From Maylandia zebra (lineage: Eukaryota > Chordata > Actinopteri > Cichliformes > Cichlidae): 64,000 bases of DNA. A program made the position numbers and the translations under genes. The stretch covers positions 645,001 through 709,000 of the forward strand of contig NC_135181.1 in NCBI RefSeq assembly GCF_041146795.1, read 5' to 3'. Shown piece by piece: positions 2,621 to 61,480 of the stretch. The notes under the pieces are model-generated. The model was not told where the DNA came from. It saw only the letters and a program-made list of their open reading frames with translations, and made no database searches. The first letter of the stretch is position 1, and every line of letters starts with the position of its first letter.

Positions 2621-3684
2621 TCACTCGTCTTTACTCTGCAGTGCCTTGCTCATGTGCCTCATTGCGATCAGCGCCGTCAGGATACAGCACACGAACAAGA
2701 CGGGGAAGGATACGCACGCCCACCACAACTGCCGCTCCCCAAATAACTCCACCACTGTATCCCTCCACCGGGCGTAGTCCTGGAACAAAGCCTCCAGCTG
2801 GGACAAGGTGCACAGGGACAGAAGCACGTGGAAGATTTGATGACCCTGGCCTGCAAAGTCACAGTTGCCTGGAAAGAAGCGCTCAGGGATGGAGCAAGAG
2901 AAGAAGAGGGCAGACAAGAGGAAACAGGCAATCTGGAGAGCGTGGAAGGGTAGCGAGGGCTCCTGTGACCAGGAGACAGTGAGCAGGCGGTGGGCTACGG
3001 GGCTGATATCCAGCACGTACGCTAGGCCGGTGGGGATCAGCTGGCACACTTTACGCTGAGGTGGATATGGCCACCTGTACCTGAACTTGGCGTAACAGCA
3101 ACCGGTGCAGGAGAGCCACCCAAAGAAGGCGGCGCCAGGCAGAAAGATTACCCCAATGCGTTCTCGCCACGCTGGCTCAGACGCGTAGAAATAGTGGCCG
3201 AGCGAGCACCCATACTGATACAGGCCACACCCACGTAGTCCAAGAAGAAGAAGTAGTGCGCGCGTTCGGAGTGAGATTGCAGGAGATGAGCCGCCACACT
3301 GAGGTACAGATATGTGAGAGATGACACCAAGAACAGGAGCAGAGGTAGCGAGGTAACGTCATCCAAGGTGCACCCCAGGGTGTCTACATTGGCCCACCAG
3401 CGGAGCAGCAGGACAGGACCGGCCAGCAAGTGGGTCCACACGTTCAGGGACTCATTATGTTTCCGGAAGAGGCTGAGGAGGTAGCAGCGCCAGTCTTGCT
3501 GGACAGGACGGTATCCTGACAGGATGTAGGGTTCCCGGAACAGGCTGGGTACCTGGGAGGCAGTGACGGTGGGGCTGGGCGGCAGTAAAGAGAAAGGGAG
3601 GAAGTCTGAGAGGTGAGGGAGACGACGCGGGTGCTTGGTGCTCAGTGCTATGGTGCTGAGCCGCTGCAAAACCTCAGTCGACAT
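2621..3684 (-). CDS. paqr8: Membrane progestin receptor beta (PAQR8), single coding exon with a one-base frameshift
   Basis: This is a seven-transmembrane progestin and adipoQ receptor family protein that binds progestogens at the plasma membrane. The start (ATG at 3684-3682) gives an N-terminus MSTEVLQRLST that resembles vertebrate PAQR8. The family signature HNESLNVWTHL lies at residues 76-86, followed by hydrophobic segments. The downstream half carries DISPVAHR and GQGHQIFH, the conserved C-terminal helices, and ends in KDE plus TGA at 2621. The frame breaks after residue 154 (LDYVGVA): relative to the expected VYQYG segment one base is missing between 3222 and 3223. The whole span is 1064 nt; one extra base would give 354 codons plus stop, the length I know for human PAQR8. 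No other lesion is visible, so a sequencing or assembly error is more likely than a decayed gene. PAQR8 is intronless in its coding part in vertebrates, as here. It is divergent to mcm3, as in human. Confidence 0.9.
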
Positions 3685-5480: not shown

Positions 5481-7829
5481 AATACAGAGACAAATATAAA
5501 TAAAATATACAAAGGGGATAAATAGAATAAATAGGAATAAAAAATAAAAATACAAGTGAATTGCACATTTCAAGTATTGAGTCTATTGCACTGTTGACTA
5601 TTTACAAAAAGTATTGCACAAGGTATTGTACAGTGAGGTGCAGAGGCACTACAGCTTAGTTGTTCCCTCCTTTGTCCTCCTGTCTCCCCTCCCTCTCCCC
5701 TCCAGAGAGGAGTTAAACAGTCTGATGGCGTGTGGGACAAAGGAGTTTTTAAGTCTGTTAGTTCTTGTCTTTGGGAGAAGCAACCTGTCACTGAACAGAC
5801 TCTTCTGGTTGTTAATGGCCGTGTGCAGAGGATGCCCAGCATTGTCCATAATGTCCAGCAGTTTCTTTAGTGTCCTTTTCTCTGCCACTGTCACCAGAGT
5901 GTTCAGCTTCATGCCGACCACAGAGCCAGCCTTCCTGATCAGTTTCTCCAGCCTGGATGAGTCCTTCTTTGCTGTGCTGCTCCCCCAGCACACCACAGCA
6001 TAGAAAAGTACTCCAGCAACCACCGACTGGTAAAACATCCTCAGGAGCTTCCTGCAGATGTTAAAAGACCTCAGCCTCCTGAGGAAGTACAGTCGGCTTT
6101 GGGCTTTTTTATACAGGTACTCTGTGTTGCATGACCAGTCCAGTTTGTTGTCCACCCACAGCCCGAGGTACTTGTACTTGTTGACCACCTCCACCTCCTC
6201 CCCCTCTATCTGAACCGGCAGTGGACCTTCTCTGGACCTCCCGAAGTCCACAACCAGTTCCTTAGTCTTTGAGGTGTTGAGTTGCAGGTGGTTTGTGTGA
6301 CTCCATGCGACAAAGTTCCTCACCAGACTTCTGTACTCCTCTTCCTGATCATCCCAGATACACCCCATGATGGCCGTGTCATCTGCAAACTTCTGAATGT
6401 GGCATAATTCAGAGTTGTAGCAGAAGTCAGAGGTGTACAGGGTGAAGAGAAGAGGGGACAGCACAGTTCCCTGTGGTGCTCCTGTGCTGCTGACCACAGT
6501 GTCAGACGTGATGTCCTTCAGCCTGACGTACTGTGGCCTGTCGGTGAGGTAGTCGGAGATCCAGGCCACCAGGCAGGGGTCCACCTCCATCCTGTTCAGT
6601 TTTTCTTGAAGCATACAGGGCCGGATGGTATTAAAGGCACTGGAAAAGTCAAGAAACAGGATCCTGACCGTGCCTTTTCCCCCATCCAGGTGTGAGTGGG
6701 CTCTGTGTAGGAGGTACAGGATGGCATCCTCCACTCCGACACCCGCCTTGTATGCAAACTGTAGTGGGTCCTGGGCATGTTGTACCTGTGGTCGGAGGAG
6801 GTTGAGGAAGAGCCGCTCTAGAGTCTTCATAAGATGTGACGTCAGTGCCACCGGTCGGAAGTCATTCAGCTCATTGGGCCGGTTCCTTTTAGGGACCGGG
6901 ACGATGCAGGACGTCTTCCAGAGGGCGGGCACTCTCCCCAGTCGCAGACTGAGGTTGAAGACTCGTTGTAGCGGCTCCCCAAGTTCAGCAGCACACGCCT
7001 TTAGCATCCTAGGACACACCTTGTCTGGGCCTGCTGCCTTTCTGGGGCAAAGCTTCCTCAGTTGCCTCCTGACCTGATCCACTGTGACACTGGGAGATGT
7101 TTGGGAGGAGGGGAGGGGGGGAGATGTCTTGCTGCTGAGAGAGGGATTGGAGGAGGGGGGTGTCATGGTGTCAGGAAGGGGGGGAAGCGAGGGAGGTAGG
7201 AGAGTGGGGAGAGGACTCTGTAGTGAAGGTGAGGGTGAGGGTGGGGGGGTTGTGGGCTGGTCAAACCTGTTGAAGAAGTTGTTGAGTTCGTTTGCCTTCT
7301 CCACAGTCCCCCCCCCCCCACTGTGCTTTTCTTGGTGTTGTGGCCTGTGATGGTTTTCACACCATTCCAGACCTCCCTCATATTGTTCCTCTCCAACTTC
7401 TGCTCCACCTTCCTCCTGTAGGTGTCCTTTGCTTCCCTCAGGCAGCGTTTCACCTCCCGCTGTGCTGCTTTCATCTCCTCCTTCACTTTGCTCCTGAAAG
7501 CCTTCTTCTTCATGTTGAGGACAGCTTTGACTTCCTGTGTTACCCACGGTTTGTTATTAGGATAACACCGTACCGTCTTAGCAGGGGCGACCGTGTCCAC
7601 ACAAAAGTTGAGGTAGTCTGTAAGACAGTGTGTCGCCCCCTCTATGTCCTCACCATGTGGGCTCAGGAGCACATCCCAGTCTGTGGTGTCATAGCAGTCT
7701 CTCAGAGCATCCTCCTTTTCTGGGGTCCATCTCCGGGTGGAGCGCGTTGTGACAGGCTGCCTTTGGACGAGGGGTGTGTATTGTGGCTGTAGGTAAACCA
7801 GGTTGTGGTCTGACTTCCCTAGTTGCACT
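5303..7829 (-). mobile_element. Rex1/Babar-like (CR1-group) LINE, 5' truncated, near full-length RT
   Basis: On the minus strand the element begins inside the apurinic endonuclease domain (KSDHNLVYL, conserved SDH near 7810). It runs through a linker with basic residues into a reverse transcriptase: RKAAGPDKVCPRML, the FLDFSSAFNTI block, APQGTVLSPLLF and the catalytic FADDTAIMG. A thumb and C-terminal region follows (LQLNTSKTKELVVDF) and the stop is at 5649. The 3' UTR contains a (CA)n tract and ends in a GATAA-type tandem tail at 5303-5318. The endonuclease frame (7163-7828) and RT frame (5649-7547) are offset, with the shift falling at a run of Gs (plus-strand C run near 7308-7319). Otherwise the RT frame is open for about 630 codons. 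The family name rests on remembered motif resemblance and the tail type. Confidence 0.85.
5418..5477. repeat. (CA)n microsatellite in LINE 3' UTR
   Basis: An uninterrupted dinucleotide run preceded by (TA)n, embedded in the 3' UTR of the LINE. Confidence 0.95.
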
Positions 7830-27635: not shown

Positions 27636-30600
27636 CTACCGGCAGGCCTCCTCCTTCATCTCCTTGTTCTTCCTCACTTCCTCTGCATGTTTGTCCTGCC
27701 AGACACAGAAACATGAGTGCCATTATCATTTAGGAAGATATTTTCATTAATGAAGGAGACGCCGGCGTAAAGGTTTGAATGAGAGCGAGTGGGGAAGAAC
27801 TGAAAAAACTTTATTTCATTGCACTAATATTCATGGTTGCTGATCAGGTTTGTGAGCAGTGCCAAACCAGAAGAGAAAGTTCAGCTGAAGCTTCGCTTCA
27901 TTTACACTCAAAAAACTCGTGTTTAGCTCTCAGTGTGTGTTTGACGTTTTGCTCAATATGTCTCTCATGTCTGTAACTTTGTAGCTGAAACAGTAAAAAC
28001 ATGAACTTGTTGATGTTCACTCTGTGTTAGACTAAAACCAGCAACGTTTCATTAGTGTTGCTACAAGTTGCCTGGCAACAAGTTGCCTGGCAACAAGTTG
28101 CCTGGCAACAAGTTGCCTGGCAACAAGTTGCCTGGCAACAAGTTGCCTGGCAACAAGTTTGGGTTCAGAAATAACACACGAGACAGTAAAGAGTCGTTTT
28201 CACAGTCTGCGATACACATGGACAAATATCAGTGTAACTTCATCCGAAGCTATTAGCTGGCTGTGAGAAAATATAAAACTGCTGCCCTCTAACTTCAAAG
28301 CTTGCATAAATCCTTTTTAGCAAGAGAAAAAGAAGAAAAACATTCAAAAGTCAAATTTAAAAGACAGTTTGCAATAATGTAGCAAACCTCCCCACAGACT
28401 CCCACGTTTAACTGTCCAACTACGCTGCACCAAACAGCAGGTTTACAGCCCAGTACAAAAACGGTCCCTGCCATATTAACTCTACGGTGGGTCAGGCTCA
28501 TCCATCTGGATACAGATCAGGCTTAAGGTTAAGGGCGTGGCTATTTATGATTGACAGGTGTGCAGGGAGCTGATTCCTGTCTGCAAAAGCAAAATAAAAA
28601 GGAGTTTCTACGTTATCCCAGGATATCATGAAGACTGGATGAAAAGAGAAGCAGCAGAGTTTGTCTCTCCAAAGTTAAACGTGTTCTGTTTGAACAAAGA
28701 CACATAAACGACCTTTTCATGCTGCTTTATTTTACTAAAGTCAAAGATGGGCCAGATTGCCTCCATAGTTAAAGCACAAATACATGTGCATATATAAAAC
28801 ATATGGTTGGCCTGGTGTCGTAAAAGTAACATTAATATGACATTTGTGACAATGCTGTCGAACTACTACATGTCATATGTTACACTGACACATCAGCACC
28901 ACAAAAACCTTGCTCAGCATTATCAGCACTGGATTTTTACCTAACCCCCCCAAACAAAAATAATGGTCCCACGTGGGAGATGAACCCTGGTGTTCTGTGG
29001 CTGTCTGCTGTGTGAGAAACCACACAAAGCAATGATTGTTTGAGATCAGTTTGCAGACCTCCCCTCTAACGGTCGGGAGGCTCGGGGCTTAATCGCGGCC
29101 ACGTTACCTTCTCCTGCAGCCTCTCCAGCATGGCTGCCAGCAGAGCCTCCCTGTTCTCCTTGTTGGCCTCCATCTTCTGCTCCAGCTTCTCCTTGGCGTT
29201 CTTGATGAAGTTGTTGTTCTCCTCAAAAGCTTTCTGGATCACCTCGCGCTCATGCTCTCTCTTCTCCGCCAGGTGCTTCAGCAGCTCCGCCTCCTGGCAC
29301 TGGAGGAAGATGGAGAAGTGAAGGCAGCTGCTCATCCTTTACACAATACTCAGACTGCAGGTGATAAGCAGGCTGTTTGCAGTTTTCACCTATTTCAACA
29401 AAGTTCAACTGTCAAACATGTTCTAGTTGAAGGGTGCAGACACAAACTGAAATGTGTGCGGTTGTCAGCACCTGTAATCTTTGTCCTCAGGTGGGCCAAA
29501 CCTCATAACTAATACATTAGATCACTGTGAGCCAGTAAAGCCAAAGAAATTGGAATTGCCTCGTTTCCAGAGAGCGCTCTTCCATCTCTAACAATCTTTT
29601 CACTCTCCTCACCTTTCCCCTGTTTGTCTCTTGCCCTCGCTCCATCATCCTCTCTGATGGATGAATATGAATCATTGTCTTTGTGTCCTCACAGGATTGT
29701 CTCTGCTCTTTCATCTGCCTCTTTTCATCTCCCCCAGCTCAGTTCCTTCTTTCCGTTAAATCCAATACTCCCTCCCACTTCCCCTTCATTCATTTTAAGC
29801 CTATTTCCGTCTCTCCGATAAATCACACAAAGAGTGCTAACAGATGTTTAACAATGGCGGAACGAGCCACAAACAGCGGATGTTTTCTGGCGGTTCAGAT
29901 GACGCGCCCGCTCCCTCACCTTTCGCCTCTCTTCAGCCGCCTCTAACTTCTTCTGGATCTCCTCCAGGGATGGGTCGCGGCGCTGCGGCATGGAGGCATT
30001 GAGTTCAGGCAAGCCGTCAAAAGACGGGGGCTTGAGGATGACCTCGAAGGCCTGGCCCGATGTGCGTTTGTTCAGCTCGATAACTTCTACGTCTTTGATG
30101 ACGCACCAGGCCAAGTCCACTGCATCTGTGTTGGTGGATAGCAGCATTTACTGTCAGAGCTGAATCCATGACCTCATCTTAGTTTGTCTTTAACATCGCC
30201 ATCATGTTATATTTTAAAACATGGAAACACGTTCAGAGAAAAGAACAAGAACAAAAAGATCTTGAGTCTATTCTGTGTACTGGAGGATGGCTGAACGATA
30301 GCAGCAGGGTTGGTTTTGCTTCTTTTAAATATATATATCTATTTAAATAAACAAACACAAACCCTTCCTCACAGGCAAGCCAGCGTTTTGTTCATCTCCA
30401 TGATTCAACTGAAGCTGGACTAATGTGCTGTATCTCGAGGTTAGAGAGACCAGTCGTCTATAATGAGATCCCTGTAAACAGACCGACTGAACTCACTTTA
30501 TTTAATAAGAAATGTCAACGTGTGCTTTAAAATCGAATCAAGCTAAATGTCTGAGTATTTATACAGTTTCATACATATTAGGGGGTTAATCAGTAATTTT

Positions 30601-31992
30601 TTTGCATTTAAAATCAGTTCGGTCTTTTCACAGATCTTTAATGGTTTGGAAGGCAGTTAAATCATAGCTAGATGTTTAGAGTTGGTGCCATAAATAGAGG
30701 AATGTGTCTTTATGATTACACAATGAGATGCTGCTATAAACATAAATCAAATATTCCTGGGACGGAGCCTCGGGGAACTTTGTAATAAGGAGGAAAGAGG
30801 CCTGGATGCTGAATGATCACTGACTGTGCTCAAAACTCAAACTTTCACGTTTGTAAAAGTATGACGTGGTCAGCTGCACCAAACACATTTCAAATCAATA
30901 AAGAGATTATAAAGGTTCCTTGTGATGTACCAAGAAGTATCCAAGATCTATCGCTTAAATAGCAGCAAACACATTTTATTGTCACTATGCACACGTACAA
31001 AGAGCTGGATAAGAAAGAAGGATGGGGTTCAAACCCACGCGTGCAGAGCACAGTGGATGAGCAGTCCGTCGCCTTGGCCACTCGGACACCTCGTCTGACA
31101 GCTGGAGCGATGCTGGAGCATAAACTTAGGCTGAAATGCAAAATGTCAATGATTTGGAGAGTCTGGTTTACTTTGAGATCGAATGTTTTACTTTAGTCAG
31201 AGATCTGGAGGAAGAACACAGAAAGTGTTTCACTCTGTAGAAATGACGCCAAGACCGAAATATAAGTTATATGTTCAGAATTTAGTTGCAGTTTGCAGTC
31301 ACTCCTGATCTGTTATAACTTTAAAAAGATTCAAATTTAGATAGAGGGAAACAAAACTGCTTCTTGCTCACTTTTAGCTCCAAAGGTGATTATTTAGAAA
31401 GACCCAGAATTAGGACAAAAGGATCAGCGTGCGTCAGCACTGACTGTGGGCCTGGGTTTACTGCAGATCTAATGAGACATCTGTGGATGAGATGTTCTTG
31501 TGTTTGTCTGTAGTTGCTGAAGTTGCTGGTTTTAGACAGACAGGAAGAGAGGAGCTGAAGTTTGAGGAGCATCAAACTTCAGCCACAGAGACTGCTGTCG
31601 GTCTTTTATAAGCGACTGTACCCCTAATAAACACCAGTGCTCGTGCAAAGGAGATTTTTTACCTTCTGCCTTGTAGGTCGGGTTTTCTGCAGTGCGTGGG
31701 TTCAGGCATGAGCAGAACAGAGACACCAGGGGGAGCTCTTTGACCTTCTCTTTATAGGCTGAGGACACACACAGAAGATCAAGCTGAATCATGAGCACGC
31801 AGTCGAGGACTGACGACGTAAGTCATGCTCGTTATGTCATACCAGCGGACATAATAACGACACGCTGCACGACACAAATACTGCATGCTCATATTTGAAC
31901 AGATCGGTCGCAGTATAGTGTTTAAAGCAGAGGAGCAGGGCGTGTGAGGTGAACGGGTTTGTGCTGCGACTGCATTTACCTGCCAGAGTCAT
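27636..31992 (-). CDS. stmn4: Stathmin-4 (RB3), five coding exons, complete
   Basis: Stathmin-4 is a neuronal phosphoprotein that binds two tubulin dimers and destabilises microtubules; it is anchored to Golgi and vesicle membranes. Coding exons in transcript order: 31992-31980, 31758-31663, 30125-29920, 29299-29108, 27695-27636. All have AG/GT borders and the phases agree; the sum is 567 nt, 188 residues plus TAG (human STMN4 is about 189). The N-terminus [19 protein letters not shown] is followed by Cys20 and Cys22, the palmitoylation pair of the SCG10-like subfamily. The stathmin-like domain begins at about residue 47 ([19 protein letters not shown], then KPPSFDG) and continues as the long tubulin-binding helix ([46 protein letters not shown]). 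SFDG and the AVDLAWCVI insert favour STMN4 over STMN2 and STMN3. Intron 4 holds an X-box array; intron 2 holds a tRNA-Ser-like sequence. Confidence 0.95.
28064..28158. repeat. Six-copy 15-bp tandem array of palindromic RFX X-box motifs
   Basis: The unit is AAGTTGCCTGGCAAC. GTTGCC-T-GGCAAC is a perfect inverted repeat and matches the RFX X-box consensus GTNRCC-N(0-3)-RGYAAC at every position. Perfect copies start at 28067, 28082, 28097, 28112, 28127 and 28142; a partial seventh unit follows. The array lies in stmn4 intron 4. Motif identity is directly seen; RFX binding is inference. Confidence 0.9.
31014..31095 (-). pseudogene. tRNA-Ser(GCT)-like sequence, diverged
   Basis: On the minus strand 82 bases follow the vertebrate tRNA-Ser(GCT) plan: acceptor GACGAGG, D arm with CCGAGTGGCCAAGG, anticodon arm GGACTGCTCATCC with anticodon GCT at 31062-31060, a long variable arm (GTGCTCTGCAC) and a T arm GTGGG-TTTGAAC-CCCAT. 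Deviations: the D-arm GGCC is GTCC, the B box has TTTGAAC instead of TTCGAA, and the acceptor 3' strand is CCTTCTT, giving one mismatch and two G-U pairs against GACGAGG. The cloverleaf is mostly intact but weakened, so I favour a tRNA pseudogene over an active gene. It lies in stmn4 intron 2, same strand. Confidence 0.75.
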
Positions 31993-39038: not shown

Positions 39039-40805
39039 GTGCATGAGAGAGAGTTCAGGGAAGTAGTGTGAGAAACTGGGGGAGCTTTGTCTCAGCATGA
39101 GGCCCAGATAGGAAGCACGCAGAGCTCTAAATTATTTAGATCCTAACTGTAAATACAGGAGCGAGAAGAAAATCTCGAGCACATGCCGTGTATCACACAT
39201 AGTTGTTATGGCAAGTATTATTATAACCACAAATACCAGTTCTTCTAAAGAGGAGACTGGGGGAAAGCCTCGTAAATGCTGTTATTTTCCAATGTTTCAC
39301 TGCTGTAATCTACAAACAATATGTACCTGCTGCATATAAGCTTTTAATCATACACCTGTGCTCTTCCTATTTGGCATTAAGGCCTTCTAGCAGTGCTCCT
39401 AGTGTAATATCCACAGCATTTTATTCCTGTAGAGGTTAACAGCACATTCTGGGCAAAGAAAAAAATTCTGTGTTGCAGTTTAAGGTTGTATTGCAGCCGA
39501 CTGTAAATGTTAGTTTACAAGCATCGCCGTTCAGCTCCACTGTATTCACAAATAAAAGTACATGACAGTATATTTACAGTTTTTCACGTTTTTCAAAATG
39601 TATTAAATTTTTACAGGGGATGTTTACAGCTACTGTACTTTACGCATGTTTTACTGTAATGCAGCCGCTCTGTGATCGCTGCTTCTATCTTTGAACCTCA
39701 GTATAGTGATCTGTATCTGCAGTCTCAGGCTGAACCACTTAATGCAAAGTAACATTAAATTACACATTTTTCTTTCATGTTTAAGGAAGGTTAAAGGTTT
39801 TGGGCATGTCGTTTATTGATATACTGAAAAGTAAAAAGGACAGGGTGGCTTTGTTAGCTTAGCGTTAGCTTGGCGATCTGATAGCCACACTACTGTATGT
39901 GATGACATCATTTCCACTTGACTGTAATGTTTTTTTCTGTATAATGTTTGGTTCAAAGATAAAGTTTTTACAAATGTTGCATATGAGAAAACACTGACAG
40001 TCGTACTGTAATGTGTGATTGTGATCTCAGACTCCTAATGTTTTTTATCCATATCAGATCACATGACGTTGTTACGTTGCCAACCAACCACCTAAAATCG
40101 CACTTTTGACTGCACTTTATATACACTGGGTTACTGTAGCAGACAGTGCCACGTGATTATGCAACTTTTAACACCTTTTACTGATATGACCCTTAAGCGG
40201 TGTGTACACTACTCTCTGTGGCCACACCTACAAATGGCAGCTAGCTTCCAGTTATCACTTTTTGTAGCATTTCTTCAATTTAACACCTTATAAAAGCATA
40301 GTATGATTTTCATAACAAACAGAATCAGTAATTTATAGTCACAATTTATACGTGAACTCTTGTGACAACATCATGTTGCCTAGCAACCACCTACAAACCA
40401 GCTAAAATGACCCATTTGTTGCATTCATGTACCTACACCATCCTTTCATTAATATCATATGATGCAATATGCTTGATGCTTCGTTAGAATATTTTAATAC
40501 ATTTTGTTGAGACGAATCGTGACAAAGCTCTGTTGTTGGATCCCGGCAGCCACAGACTGCCACAGTGACCGTTGTGTTATTACTGGCCTAATGTGACACC
40601 AGAGTCGCTCTGGAAAGGCCTGCGAATCCCAACGTGATGTTAAACGCTGTTTGCAGAGTGTTATTGCACTTGGTCTCACAGTAGCTCTGCTGCAAAGCTG
40701 GCATGATCGTGTGTTTGGAAAAGCTTGGAGCTCATCTGCGTTTTTCCCCGGGGGAACACCACTCCTACTAAAGCTCCCACTCAAACTTCTTCCTGTAGTG
40801 GATCT
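39035..40805. other. Intergenic stretch, nothing recognised
   Basis: No exon or element boundary was supported. It includes an isolated X-box-like palindrome GTTGCCTAGCAAC at 40375-40387. Confidence 0.45.
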
Positions 40806-40897: not shown

Positions 40898-41918
40898 TTA
40901 TAGCTGATTCGGACGATGTCAATAACAACACAGCTGTTTTAAATAGCTATGCTGTCAAGACATCAGAGTAATAAGGAAGGCTTGACAGTAGCAAAATAAA
41001 ATGTAAAAGAACAGGGCTTAAGGACAGGACAGTGAATACTGAGAAAACCCTCTGCTGATGCAGCTCACACAAGCAACATGATGTCACCACGGCGTCCACC
41101 AGCACATGAAAGAGCTCACGGCGCAGCAGGAGAGAGAGCGATATGCATGAGGTCACATTAGGGCGTGTCCCGCTGTTGCTGTCTCCTCTTCTCCCCTCAC
41201 CGTGCTGACTGTAAACCAACGTGTGACACTGGACATCACACACATCCTGGAAATGAGCTCATCAGGGGAGGGGAGAGAAAAGAGACACAGAGAGGAGTAA
41301 GGAGTGGTGGAGGAGACACCCTCCAACATCAAACAGATTATTTCAGTGATTCTGGGGGAACAAAGATAAGAGGGAGGGCCCGAGCAGGGGGAAAACAAGA
41401 AGTGCCAAAAAAAGAGGGGCGCCGACAGGGAACACCCACGGGAGAAGTTGGGAGAGGAGCAAGAAAAATGCTCCTGGGGAAACAGCAGGAGGGATCAGAG
41501 GTTTTACAGAACAGCCTCTGTACGCTGGGACGAGCCGGAGAAACGGACAAACTGAATCTTTCCTCCAATAAAAAAACTAAAAACCCATCTCTACCTTCAG
41601 GTGGTGGTGACCTGGTTATAGTCTTCTTCACAGTCAGTCACATATGTTTTTAGACGATTTTGATGCTCAAAAGCAAAACAAGTATGCAGAGAAGGCGGTA
41701 CTCATCTTAAACCAAACTCATATCCTGATAACCACTTAAGGGCCTGCAGTGAACGCGCACACTCTTCCCCACTATGTCTGCACTCTGCAGGTCTGCAGAC
41801 CCTCGTAGCCTGTAAAATATAAACAATTACAGCAGCTCAGTGGCAGCACGAGAGTCTGACATCATCCTCCCGATGAGATCATCCCATAAAACTACTGGTC
41901 TTACTCATTCAGCTAAAC
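40898..41918. other. Intergenic stretch with purine-rich open frame, no gene recognised
   Basis: A 162-codon open frame at 41165-41653 (plus) is low-complexity and rich in G, K, E and R. It shows no domain and no splice or promoter context, so I do not call a gene. Confidence 0.4.
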
Positions 41919-45176: not shown

Positions 45177-45329
45177 TTGTGCAGCACGTAAGATCGACAG
45201 CACACAGTGTGCTTTAAGGTAGGAGCCAAAAAGGGTGTAGTTTGTGTGTGTGAGCACCCGTGTGTACACCTGTGAGCATGAGCGCGCTTGTTTTAAAAGG
45301 TTCCTTCATGTAATGATCTGCTAGAGCAG

Positions 45330-45424
45330 GGGTGGGCAATCTCAGTCCACGAGGGCCGGTGTCCCTGCAGTTTTAGACGTGTCCTCGAACCAACACAGCT
45401 GATTTAAATGGCTAAATTAGCTCC
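45330..45424. repeat. Half of a common fish repeat beginning CAGGGGTGGGCAATCTCAG
   Basis: CAGGGGTGGGCAATCTCAG followed by GAGGGCCGGTGTCCCTGCAG is a dispersed fish repeat end that I recognise by sequence. It is cut off at about 45424, where the MITE-like element begins; the other half is not found nearby. Confidence 0.5.
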
Positions 45425-46070
45425 TCAACGGCTGTATCCCAATTCAGGGTCTGCAGCCTTAAAGTACGCAGCCTCAACGATCCTCAAGGGCCATGTACTT
45501 AAAGACCACTAAGGCCGGAAGTGCGAGGCTTGTGAAATGGGACGGTCTAGCCTCTGTTGCGCTGCCCAAGTTGCCTAGCAACCATGATACTAACAGCTGG
45601 AAACGTGTCATACAGCTGTGTTTGACAGAGATGAAGGAGAAATCTTTTGTTCATTCGTTTGTTTGTTTCTACATGAGCTTTGATCATTCTCTGATTAAGC
45701 TCAGCTATTAAACAGCGAATATTTTAAAGTAAAGGCTTTAAAACCAAGTTAGTACAAACGTCACTGATGTCACATGACTTTGCCGACATGTGGCCACCAG
45801 TAATGTTTTCATGTTCTTCATTATTAAACATTTGCACATAAATAAGTGACATCATATTCAGTACTTACTTAAAGTTTACTCTTCGGCCGCCCCTCATCCG
45901 CCGTTTTTTTCGGCAAAATTATCCACACCCACCGCCGCGCTATGCATTCTGGGATATGTTGGGCCACGAAGTCTACACCGCCACGTCCTTAAAATTCAGG
46001 GAACTTAAGGACGCATTTGAGGGCCGCATTTCGAGCAGCCTTCGAATTGGGACAGCCTTCGTCGCGTCGC
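45425..46070. mobile_element. MITE-like element with imperfect terminal inverted repeats
   Basis: The left end reads GGCTGTATCCCAATTCAGGG. The right end, reverse-complemented, reads GGCTGTCCCAATTCGAAGG, so the two are inverted repeats with small indels; both continue with GCAGCC/GCTGC. No transposase is present. The superfamily and target duplication were not resolved. An X-box palindrome GTTGCCTAGCAAC lies inside at 45570-45582. Confidence 0.6.
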
Positions 46071-46074
46071 GGTG

Positions 46075-48165
46075 ACGATCGGAGCAATTAATCGGGAAGA
46101 CTGTAGATTTTGACCAGTTCATTGAGTAATCTGATATTCTTGCAAAAGAGTTTATCAATGCAATCACCCCAGAGATATTGGTTTGTGAGTTTTGGAGAAA
46201 AAGTAACACATCATCCGCATAAAGGCTGATTTTATGTTCCACGTTCTTGCATTTTATGCCCCTAATTACTGAATTCTGTCTAATTGCTGCTGCTAGTGGT
46301 TCAATAAAAATTGCAAACAGTGAAGGGGAGAGTGGGCATCCCTGCCTGGTGCCCCTCAGGAGACAGAAGCTGGAGGATGTCTGGTCATTTGTTCTAACAC
46401 AAGCTGTTGGGGAATTTTATAATATTTTTAACCAGTTGATGAAAGAGGATCCAAAACCAAATTTGTGTAAAGTTGCAAATAGAAATTTCCAGTTAACTCT
46501 GTCAAATGCTTTTTCTGCATCTAAAGAAAATATTGTAGTTTCTAGGTTTTTACTGTATGAGTAGTCTATCAAATTAAGTAATCTACGTGTATTTGTTGAT
46601 GAGTGCCGACCTTTTATGAAACCAGTTTGGTCAGGATGAATTAAGAGGGGGGTTATTTTCTCCAGTCTCTTTGAGAGAGCTTTGCAGATTATTTTAAGGT
46701 CTACATTTATAAGGGATATTGGACGATAGCTTGAGGGATATACAGGGTCTTTGCCTGGTTTTAGCAGGAGATTAATGTTTGCAGAATTCATATTTGATGG
46801 AAGTCTGCCCTTTTCTTTAATTTCCAACAACGTTCTGTAGAAAACTGGTGCTAGAATCGACCAGAATTCTTTGTAGAATTCTGCAGGAAAGCCGTCTGGA
46901 CCTGGAGCCTTATTATTGGGCATACTTATCAGGGCTTCCTGGAGTTCACCTGTGTCAGTGGTGAATCCAGTGCCATTGCTTGAGTGTCTAATAATTTTGG
47001 AAGAGTTATGTTGTCCAAAAACTGATCAATTTCTTTTTTAGATGGGTTTATTTGTGGTGAATACAACGTTTTATAGAAATCCCTGAAAATGTTGTTTATT
47101 TGTATCGGTTCATATAATGTGTTCCCAGATGAATCTTGAACAGCACATATAGTTGTTTTTTCTTTATTTATTTTTAGCTGGTTTGCTAGAAATTGACCTG
47201 ATTTATTACCATGTTCATAATTTTTTAGGTGTAGTCTTTGTACTAAGAATTTTGTTTTTTTATCAATTATCTCATTTAATTCTAGTTTTGTTTTGCGTAT
47301 TTTGTTCAATGTTTCCTGATCTTGGTGGGACGCGTAGGCTTCTTCTAGTGATTTGATGTTTTTTTCTAATTCCTGAATATTTTTGTTTTCTTTTTTCTTT
47401 TTATGTGATGAGAAAGAAATTATTTTACCTCTCATCACAGCTTTCCCTGCTTCCCATAGAACAGAAGCTGATGTTTCGGGAGTGTCATTATAGTTCAAAT
47501 ATGAAGTCCACTCTTTTTTAAAATATTTAATAAAGTCTTCATCTTTAAGTAGTGATATATTAAATCTCCAGTTTTTACTTGGCGTAGTATTATTCTTGTG
47601 CATTAGTGTTAAAGATACAGGAGCATGATCGCTGACAGCTATAGGATGAATCTCAGTGTCTGAAATGTCGTTCAGCAGTGAGCTGCTGACCAAAAAATAA
47701 TCCAGACGAGAGTAGGAGTGATGGACATGTGAGAAAAAAGTATATTCCTTACTGGTGGGGTGAAGGGAGCGCCATGCATCGCAAAGACCAAAGTCACTCA
47801 TATACTGTTTGATTATATTTGTGGACTGCCAATTACGCTGAGTTCCCGCTGTGTTGAGCCTATCCATGTCTTCATTTAGTCCAAGGTTGAGGTCGCCTCC
47901 AAGAACAAGTGTGCCATCTAAGTGTTCAGAGAGTGCACTGAAAAAACCGTGAAAGACTGAGGGATCGTCAACATTTGGACCATATACACTTGCAATACAT
48001 AGCTTTTTATCACGTAGATAGTTTAATGATTTGGCCGGGGAAGCTGCACTCTGGGCCTTCTTCATCACGAGATCCTGGAAGCACTGATCGATGTAATCTT
48101 GGAGAGCCTCTAAACTCTCCCCGTTGTTCTCCAGGGTGTTGGAGATGATTTAGACAAATGTTGTT
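46075..48165 (-). mobile_element. L1-like LINE fragment (endonuclease C-terminal part plus RT), inactive
   Basis: The minus strand reads endonuclease motifs (SVYGPN, GGDLNLGLN, SRLDYFLVSSSL, SDHAPVSLTL), then a coiled linker, then RT motifs: NNKAPGPDGFPAEFYKEFW, YRPISLINVDLKI, QTGFIKGRHS, SLDAEKAFDRVNW, GTRQGCPLSPSLFAIF and YADDVLLF. Frames change between 46929 and 46923 and again near 46417, and the 3' end beyond the YADD region is lost at the junction with the MITE-like element. The 5' end is also missing. About 38 in-frame residues upstream of the endonuclease part (48067-48160) do not look like L1. Confidence 0.9.

Positions 48166-52683: not shown

Positions 52684-52687
<4 letters not shown>
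50955..52687. other. Intergenic stretch, nothing recognised
   Basis: No exon, RNA gene or named repeat is supported. Confidence 0.45.
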
Positions 52688-52719
<32 letters not shown>

Positions 52720-52769
52720 ACACACTCACACTCACACACACACACACACACACTCACACACACACACAC

Positions 52770-52803
<34 letters not shown>

Positions 52804-52816
52804 ACACACACACACT

Positions 52817-52891
<75 letters not shown>

Positions 52892-52940
52892 ACACACTCA
52901 CACTCACACACACACACACACACACTCACACACACACACA

Positions 52941-52985
<45 letters not shown>

Positions 52986-53029
52986 ACACACACACTCACA
53001 CACACACACACACTCACACACACACACAC

Positions 53030-53095
<66 letters not shown>

Positions 53096-53145
53096 ACACA
53101 CTCACACTCACACACACACACACACACACTCACACACACACACAC

Positions 53146-53179
<34 letters not shown>

Positions 53180-53188
53180 ACACACACT

Positions 53189-53235
<47 letters not shown>
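52688..53235. repeat. Long (CA)n/CTCACA composite microsatellite
   Basis: About 550 bases of CA repeat regularly interrupted by TC (CACACTCACA). The resulting 210-codon His/Thr frame is an artefact. Confidence 0.97.
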
Positions 53236-60189: not shown

Positions 60190-61290
60190 AAGATAAGATA
60201 AGATAAGATAACCTTTATTAGTCCCACACGTGGGAAATTTGTTTTGTCACAGCAGGAGTGGACAGTGCAAAAGTTATGAGGCAAAAATTAGAATACAATA
60301 AGAATAAATACAGTACACAGCTGTACAGAATAGAATAGAATAAAATACAATAAATATACAATAAGATAAAAATAGAATACAAATACAAATACTATATACA
60401 ACTGAGTAAAAATACAACGATGACAGAAAAGATTATTGCACTTAGTGTTATTGCACATGTGTGGATGTGTGTGCTTGATCAGTTAAAGTCTTTGTTGTGG
60501 AGTCTGACAGCAGTGGGGAAGAAAGACCTGCGAAATCTCTCCGTCCCACACCGTGGGTGCCGCAGTCTCCCACTGAAGGAGCTGCTCAGTGCTGTCACAG
60601 TCTGCTGCATGGGGTGGGAGACGTTGTCCAACAGGGATGACAGCTTAGCCGCCGTTCTCCTGTCACTCACCACCTCCACTGGGTCCAGAGGGCATCCTAG
60701 AACAGAGCTGGCCCTTCGGATCACCCTGTTCAGTCTCTTCCTGTCCCCAGCAGAGATGCTGCCGCCCCAGCAGACCACACCATAAAAGATAGCAGAAGCC
60801 ACAACAGAGTCATAGAAGGTCTTCAGGAGTGGGCCCTCCACCCCAAACGACCTGAGTCTCCGCAGCAGGTACAGCCTGCTCTGCCCTTTCCTGTAGAGGG
60901 CGTCTGAGTTATGAGTCCAGTCCAGTCTGTTGTTCAGATGAACACCAAGGTACCTGTAGCTGTCCACAGCCTCAATGTCCATACCTTGGATGTTCAGTGG
61001 TTGCAGTGGAGAATGCTTGTGCCTGCGGAAGTCTACCACCAGCTCCTTGGTTTTACTGGCATTGATCTGGAGGTAGTTCAGCTGGCACCAGTCCACAAAG
61101 TCTTGGGTCAGACCTCTGTACTCCTTGTCGTCCCCATCAGTGATGAGGCCGACTATTGCAGAGTCATCAGAGAACTTCTGCAGGAAGCACTGGGTGGAAT
61201 TGTGGGAGAAGTCTGCAGTGTAGATGGTGAAGAGGAACGGAGCCAGAACCGTTCCCTGTGGGGCCCCGTACTGCAGACGACCCTGTCTGT
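60190..61290 (-). mobile_element. Rex1-like LINE, 5' truncated, inserted in L2
   Basis: The minus-strand 205-codon frame (61096-60479) begins within the RT palm/thumb (LNYLQINASKTKELVVDF) and continues YRYLGVHLNNRLDWT, LYLLRRLRSFG, FYGVVCWGG and a C-terminal tail. It is followed by a 3' UTR and a tandem GATAA tail at 60190-60210. An adjacent frame still shows ADFSHNST-type and GTVLAPFLFTIYTADF-like sequence near 61210-61260. The element is flanked by AGTAAT on both sides. Confidence 0.8.
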
Positions 61291-61480
61291 AGTAATCTGG
61301 AGGTCACAAAGGCATGAATAAGCTTTTCAAGATCCTTATGTGGTACGTAATGCTTAGCCTTCAAAATAAGACGAAGTTGGTAAAAGCTATATTTGACTAC
61401 AGAGGACACAAACAGGCACAAAGCTGACTTCTTAGCATTAAATGATGCAACATTTGTAAAAGCACAGTCAGACAACAGAT
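61291..61480 (-). mobile_element. L2-type LINE, upstream half of the interrupted copy
   Basis: The minus strand reads FYQLRLILKAKHYV then HKDLEKLIHAFVTSRL, the L2 segment that directly precedes the DYCNSL region. That region resumes at 60189, on the other side of the Rex1-like insertion. Confidence 0.75.

Follow-up and report, generated by a model that had tools for sequence, protein, structure and literature searches.

A 15-bp intronic minisatellite of X-box-like palindromes in stmn4 of Maylandia zebra and its predicted hairpin

Intron 4 of stmn4 in the cichlid Maylandia zebra carries a tandem array of short palindromes resembling the RFX X-box, and the question raised by this locus is whether such an array serves as a regulatory element or is a structural repeat. 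Both alternatives had been proposed in a sequence-only reading of the window, by which we mean the whole stretch of 64,000 nucleotides analysed here. In our analysis the structural minisatellite turned out to be the better supported of the two, whereas the regulatory element gained no support.

The array and its host gene

The host gene was established from a splice-joined frame together with phmmer. Five minus-strand coding exons with GT/AG at all four junctions gave a joined frame of 188 aa: the coding part of exon 1 with the start codon (31980..31992), coding exons 2 (31663..31758), 3 (29920..30125) and 4 (29108..29299), and coding exon 5 with the stop codon (27636..27695). When this product was compared with solved structures by phmmer, 22 distinct sequences were matched, each of them named stathmin, Stathmin-4 or stathmin-like domain, and one of them, 5xaf_E (Stathmin-4), spanned residues 1-188 of the product with an E of 1.1e-92. 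Because the exon model and the Stathmin-4 match fix both the gene and its junctions, the array could be placed in intron 4 of stmn4, in agreement with the label given to it earlier. This last coding intron is 1412 bp long (27696..29107, minus strand), its GT donor adjoining 29108 and its AG acceptor adjoining 27695; the array is separated from exon 5 by 367 intron bases and from exon 4 by 948. In intron 2 of the same gene, a tRNA-Ser-like stretch was noticed by eye (31010-31100, minus strand), perhaps a decayed tRNA or the head of a SINE, for which window-wide runs of Rfam at the gathering threshold and of ARAGORN returned nothing.

In a minisatellite, units of about 10-60 bp follow one another head to tail, and by this definition the array is one. 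TRF reported it at 28063-28159 with a period of 15, 6.5 copies, 100% matches, 0% indels and a score of 194, and direct extension of the period-15 identity gave the same 97 bp with no mismatch. The perfect six-copy array that the sequence-only reading had claimed for 28064..28158 was therefore real and extended one base further on each side. The unit is CAAGTTGCCTGGCAA in the phase that starts at 28064, and each of the six full units holds the X-box-like palindrome GTTGCC-T-GGCAAC, found both by exact match and by the consensus scan at 28067..28079, 28082..28094, 28097..28109, 28112..28124, 28127..28139 and 28142..28154; the 13-mer GTTGCCTGGCAAC is exact at all six starts. It had been called a perfect palindrome, which was right for its 6+6 arms and wrong for the central T, which has no partner. 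The spacing of about 1.4 helical turns between sites also stood, as 15 bp makes 1.43 turns of a helix with 10.5 bp per turn, and by the same arithmetic neighbouring sites are rotated by about 154 degrees relative to each other.

It was clear from the shuffle controls that such a series of sites is rare. The sequence GTTGCCNGGCAAC, with at most one mismatch, gave 8 matches in the window, a number reached in 0 of 100 dinucleotide-preserving shuffles (mean 0.16, largest 3). Together with the Markov control described below, this ruled out a chance origin of the array. With a transposable-element origin in mind, intron 4 was searched against the window by self-BLAST (E up to 1e-3); only the intron itself and shifted self-matches of the array were obtained. 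The flanks GTTGCTACAA and AAGTTTGGG might be decayed edge units with small deletions, an impression gained by eye only, on which we make no claim. Many further tandem repeats were present in the window (29 TRF rows, some of them overlapping), among them a (CA)n-type array of 549 bp at 52687-53235 in which CT interruptions recur.

Match of the unit to the RFX consensus

GTNRCC-N(0-3)-RGYAAC is given as the RFX1 consensus in a passage of PMC3414849, where it is cited to Emery et al. 1996. A match to it had been proposed for the array, and our consensus scan found it in all six full units, on both strands and at all 12 arm positions, which is the likeness of the stmn4 unit to the RFX X-box. Two single sites outside the array, elsewhere in the window, also fitted the consensus. 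In 60 first-order Markov sequences modelled on the rest of the window the mean number of matches was 0.92 and the highest 3, so a general enrichment of X-boxes in the window was unsupported (two outside sites against 0.92 expected and up to 3 simulated). The match appeared in 182 of 400000 shuffled units (about 0.05%) and in 51 of 400000 random 15-mers, rates which are post hoc, as any one of many factor families might have been chosen. By these rates the RFX match is not a consequence of palindromy, and a functional X-box could thus have seeded the array. An NFI site was considered as well; the NFI motif is TTGGC-N5-GCCAA, and the GGC/GCC spacing of the unit, judged by eye, does not fit it.

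Among open-licence PMC papers, GTTGCCTGGCAAC was found in a single one (PMC4221739), where the 13-mer is part of a primer for cloning the ciliary gene Fltp of the mouse, with TGTTTAC next to it; neither RFX nor X-box occurs in the main text of that paper. Because the unit fits the RFX1 consensus and its 13-mer is present in this primer, it seems probable that an RFX protein could bind a single unit in vitro. Simultaneous occupancy of all six would need near edge-to-edge packing on faces rotated by 154 degrees. The TGTTTAC of the Fltp primer is forkhead-like; an exact-match scan of intron 4 detected no CCAAT and no match to any of four forkhead heptamers.

A homotypic enhancer, in which RFX1-4-type dimers would sit on several units and drive stmn4 or a neighbour in a neuronal or ependymal, copy-number-tuned manner, was judged unlikely. 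The six consensus matches and the 13-mer shared with Fltp speak for it, as does the over-representation of palindromic X-boxes among dRFX-regulated genes reported in part of PMC2375033. However, the spacer of the unit is a single T (1 bp), in place of the 2 bp of the canonical form GTTGCCATGGCAAC, and an extract of PMC11344851 gives GTTGCCA-TGGCAAC, with two spacer bases, for most RFX family members. The excerpted text of PMC3414849 has Rfx factors typically using a single upstream site, paired with a forkhead motif in one Drosophila target set, whereas stmn4 has six sites in tandem, all within its last coding intron, where the exact-match scan gave neither CCAAT nor any of the four heptamers. 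RFX or GLI motifs were insufficient for reporter expression according to a passage of PMC12119339, and of 20 open-licence PMC papers naming both stmn4 and RFX, the 10 that were listed had neither term in title or abstract. The broader proposal, that a lineage-specific, dense array of X-boxes with variable copy number is an RFX-driven cis-regulator of stmn4 whose expansion creates a tunable neuronal or ciliary element in one step, seems quite unlikely to us. An intronic silencer or decoy would instead use the half CCTGGCAACA, on which RFX1 or RFX5/7-type complexes would repress or be titrated. This half is one base off CCTAGCAACA, the variant that the same extract of PMC11344851 gives for RFX5 and RFX7, and CCTRGCAAC is carried by six of six units; yet RFX5/7 sites are described there as often near a CCAAT box, which intron 4 lacks by exact match, and we regard this reading as very improbable.

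Predicted folding and growth of the array

Since each unit differs little from its reverse complement, a strand of the array is predicted to fold on itself, giving a hairpin that takes in almost the entire array and is interrupted solely by T-T mismatches (A-A in the opposite strand) and by mismatches of two bases. For the plus-strand DNA the predicted energy was -42 kcal/mol, whereas shuffles averaged -19.86 (z -8.02) and none of the 200 was as stable. Shuffled letters make a poor comparison for a tandem array, so arrays of shuffled units were added as a fairer control; of 2000 such arrays, 25 equalled or exceeded this stability, which makes the fold unusual at about the 1% level. The hairpin- or cruciform-prone nature suggested earlier was in this way borne out by prediction. 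The predicted energy deepened with copy number, from -3.7 for one unit to -42 for six and -146 for 20, and palindromic arms of at least 6 bp were seen in only 1569 of 100000 shuffled units. An inverted-repeat finder with a minimum arm of 12 returned none for the array, the unit arms being 6 bp and thus below that minimum.

The array is probably a young, hairpin-prone intronic minisatellite whose unit also happens to be a plausible RFX site. It would have started as one 13-bp palindrome of X-box type and may have grown via replication slippage or repair. The hairpin would let the nascent or the template strand slip by whole units, and such slippage, if general knowledge of hairpin-forming repeats applies here, would add copies and keep them alike; in a review (PMC12887540), cruciform-forming inverted repeats are said to hinder the progression of replication forks. 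The perfect identity of the copies over 97 bp and the palindrome in every unit argue for the minisatellite, as do the predicted fold, the many other tandem repeats of the window and the bacterial array described below. On the other hand, the absence of sequence drift is likewise expected under selection, which counts against a neutral reading, and slippage is proposed from the identity and the predicted fold in one sequence. Little or no effect of the array on stmn4 is expected, a regulatory role being less likely than neutrality.

Two further explanations were weighed against the young minisatellite. The intron transcript may form a long imperfect hairpin that affects editing or the way the last exon is spliced. 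For the minus-strand RNA of the array the predicted energy is -63 kcal/mol (z -7.55, a stability that none of 200 shuffles reached), and its distance to exon 5 given above would suit such a role. However, the plus-strand DNA folds alike, which follows from the self-complementarity of the units, and the fold hence does not speak for a role in RNA; moreover, the donor and acceptor of intron 4 are of the GT/AG type, and no Rfam family was found at the gathering threshold anywhere in the window. An RNA-level element was accordingly held to be decidedly unlikely. An assembly artefact or a mis-sized array was thought most improbable of all: tandem repeats are generally error-prone in assemblies, but an array of 97 bp fits within ordinary reads, and there were no Ns anywhere in the window.

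Collection scans showed that a similar array also exists in a bacterium. With centre and linker bases left free, a three-unit pattern had one match among prokaryotes (84,980 species, each represented by a single genome), in an Anaerolineae MAG. There, the 15-bp unit GTTGCCGGGCAACAC is repeated in 4.3 copies (1155-1219 of locus L001) with the half-sites GTTGCC/GGCAAC, and the open frame across it reads as TLPGN repeats. The same 8-kb locus holds a second palindromic 15-bp array, three copies of GGTTGGGTACAACCC at 6167-6211, with an open frame of VVPNR repeats. Bacteria are not known to possess the RFX family, and an array with these shared half-sites can therefore arise without RFX. This shows the possibility and not the mechanism, being one match in a large scan, and a coding role may hold the bacterial array in place. 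We do not regard it as a homologue of the stmn4 array, as centre and linker differ and the open frame reads a pentapeptide repeat. In viral contigs, the 28-bp two-unit sequence had 0 matches, and a variant in which the centre and the linker were left free had none either.

Known systems and other features of the window

The stmn4 array resembles MNS16A at TERT, described in part of PMC5438627 as a polymorphic and functional VNTR with GATA1 sites in the promoter of an antisense transcript, in its short unit, its head-to-tail copies and the factor-type sites within the repeat. It differs from MNS16A in being intronic and in having a palindromic, RFX-like unit, any polymorphism or function of it being putative. 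With hairpin or slipped-strand repeats (non-B DNA) it shares a predicted hairpin that grows with copy number and in which T-T and AA/AA mismatches recur regularly; the unit of the best-known hairpin-forming repeats is, however, 3 bp, against 15 bp here, and hairpin-proneness is a prediction for stmn4. Four 14-mers spanning the array unit or its linker were found, on either strand, in none of the open-licence PMC papers, and no paper joining RFX with a minisatellite or tandem-repeat array was found there, as judged by titles and the starts of abstracts. If functional, the array would offer a natural copy-number series in which to study the number and phasing of RFX sites that an enhancer requires. 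Should it be neutral, it would be a warning that hairpin-prone palindromes can amplify consensus sites of a factor without selection for binding.

The two matches to GTTGCCNGGCAAC outside the array, among the 8 obtained with one mismatch allowed, were single X-box-like sites of GTTGCCTAGCAAC at 40375 and 45570. The first (40375-40387) has unrelated flanks, and self-BLAST of 40100-40700 gave no further copy in the window. The second lies within 45437-46052, where imperfect inverted repeats (18 nt, 78% complementary) bracket about 600 bp; this segment has the look of a short inverted-repeat transposon, by which X-box-like sites could be spread. When 45300-45900 was searched by self-BLAST, the sole match apart from the query itself was one of 24 bp at 40926-40949. 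The putative transposon adjoins a minus-strand frame (45973-46416) in which a YADD reverse-transcriptase motif was seen by eye.

A Pfam scan took in six frames of the window, two of which had no match. LINE-like frames were present on the minus strand at 5652-7553, 46932-48149 and 60482-61303, with RVT_1 in the first and the last and an endonuclease/exonuclease/phosphatase domain in 46932-48149. The minus-strand frame at 2624-3358 carries an HlyIII domain (Pfam, E 1.1e-30), and is probably a gene for a PAQR-type membrane receptor.
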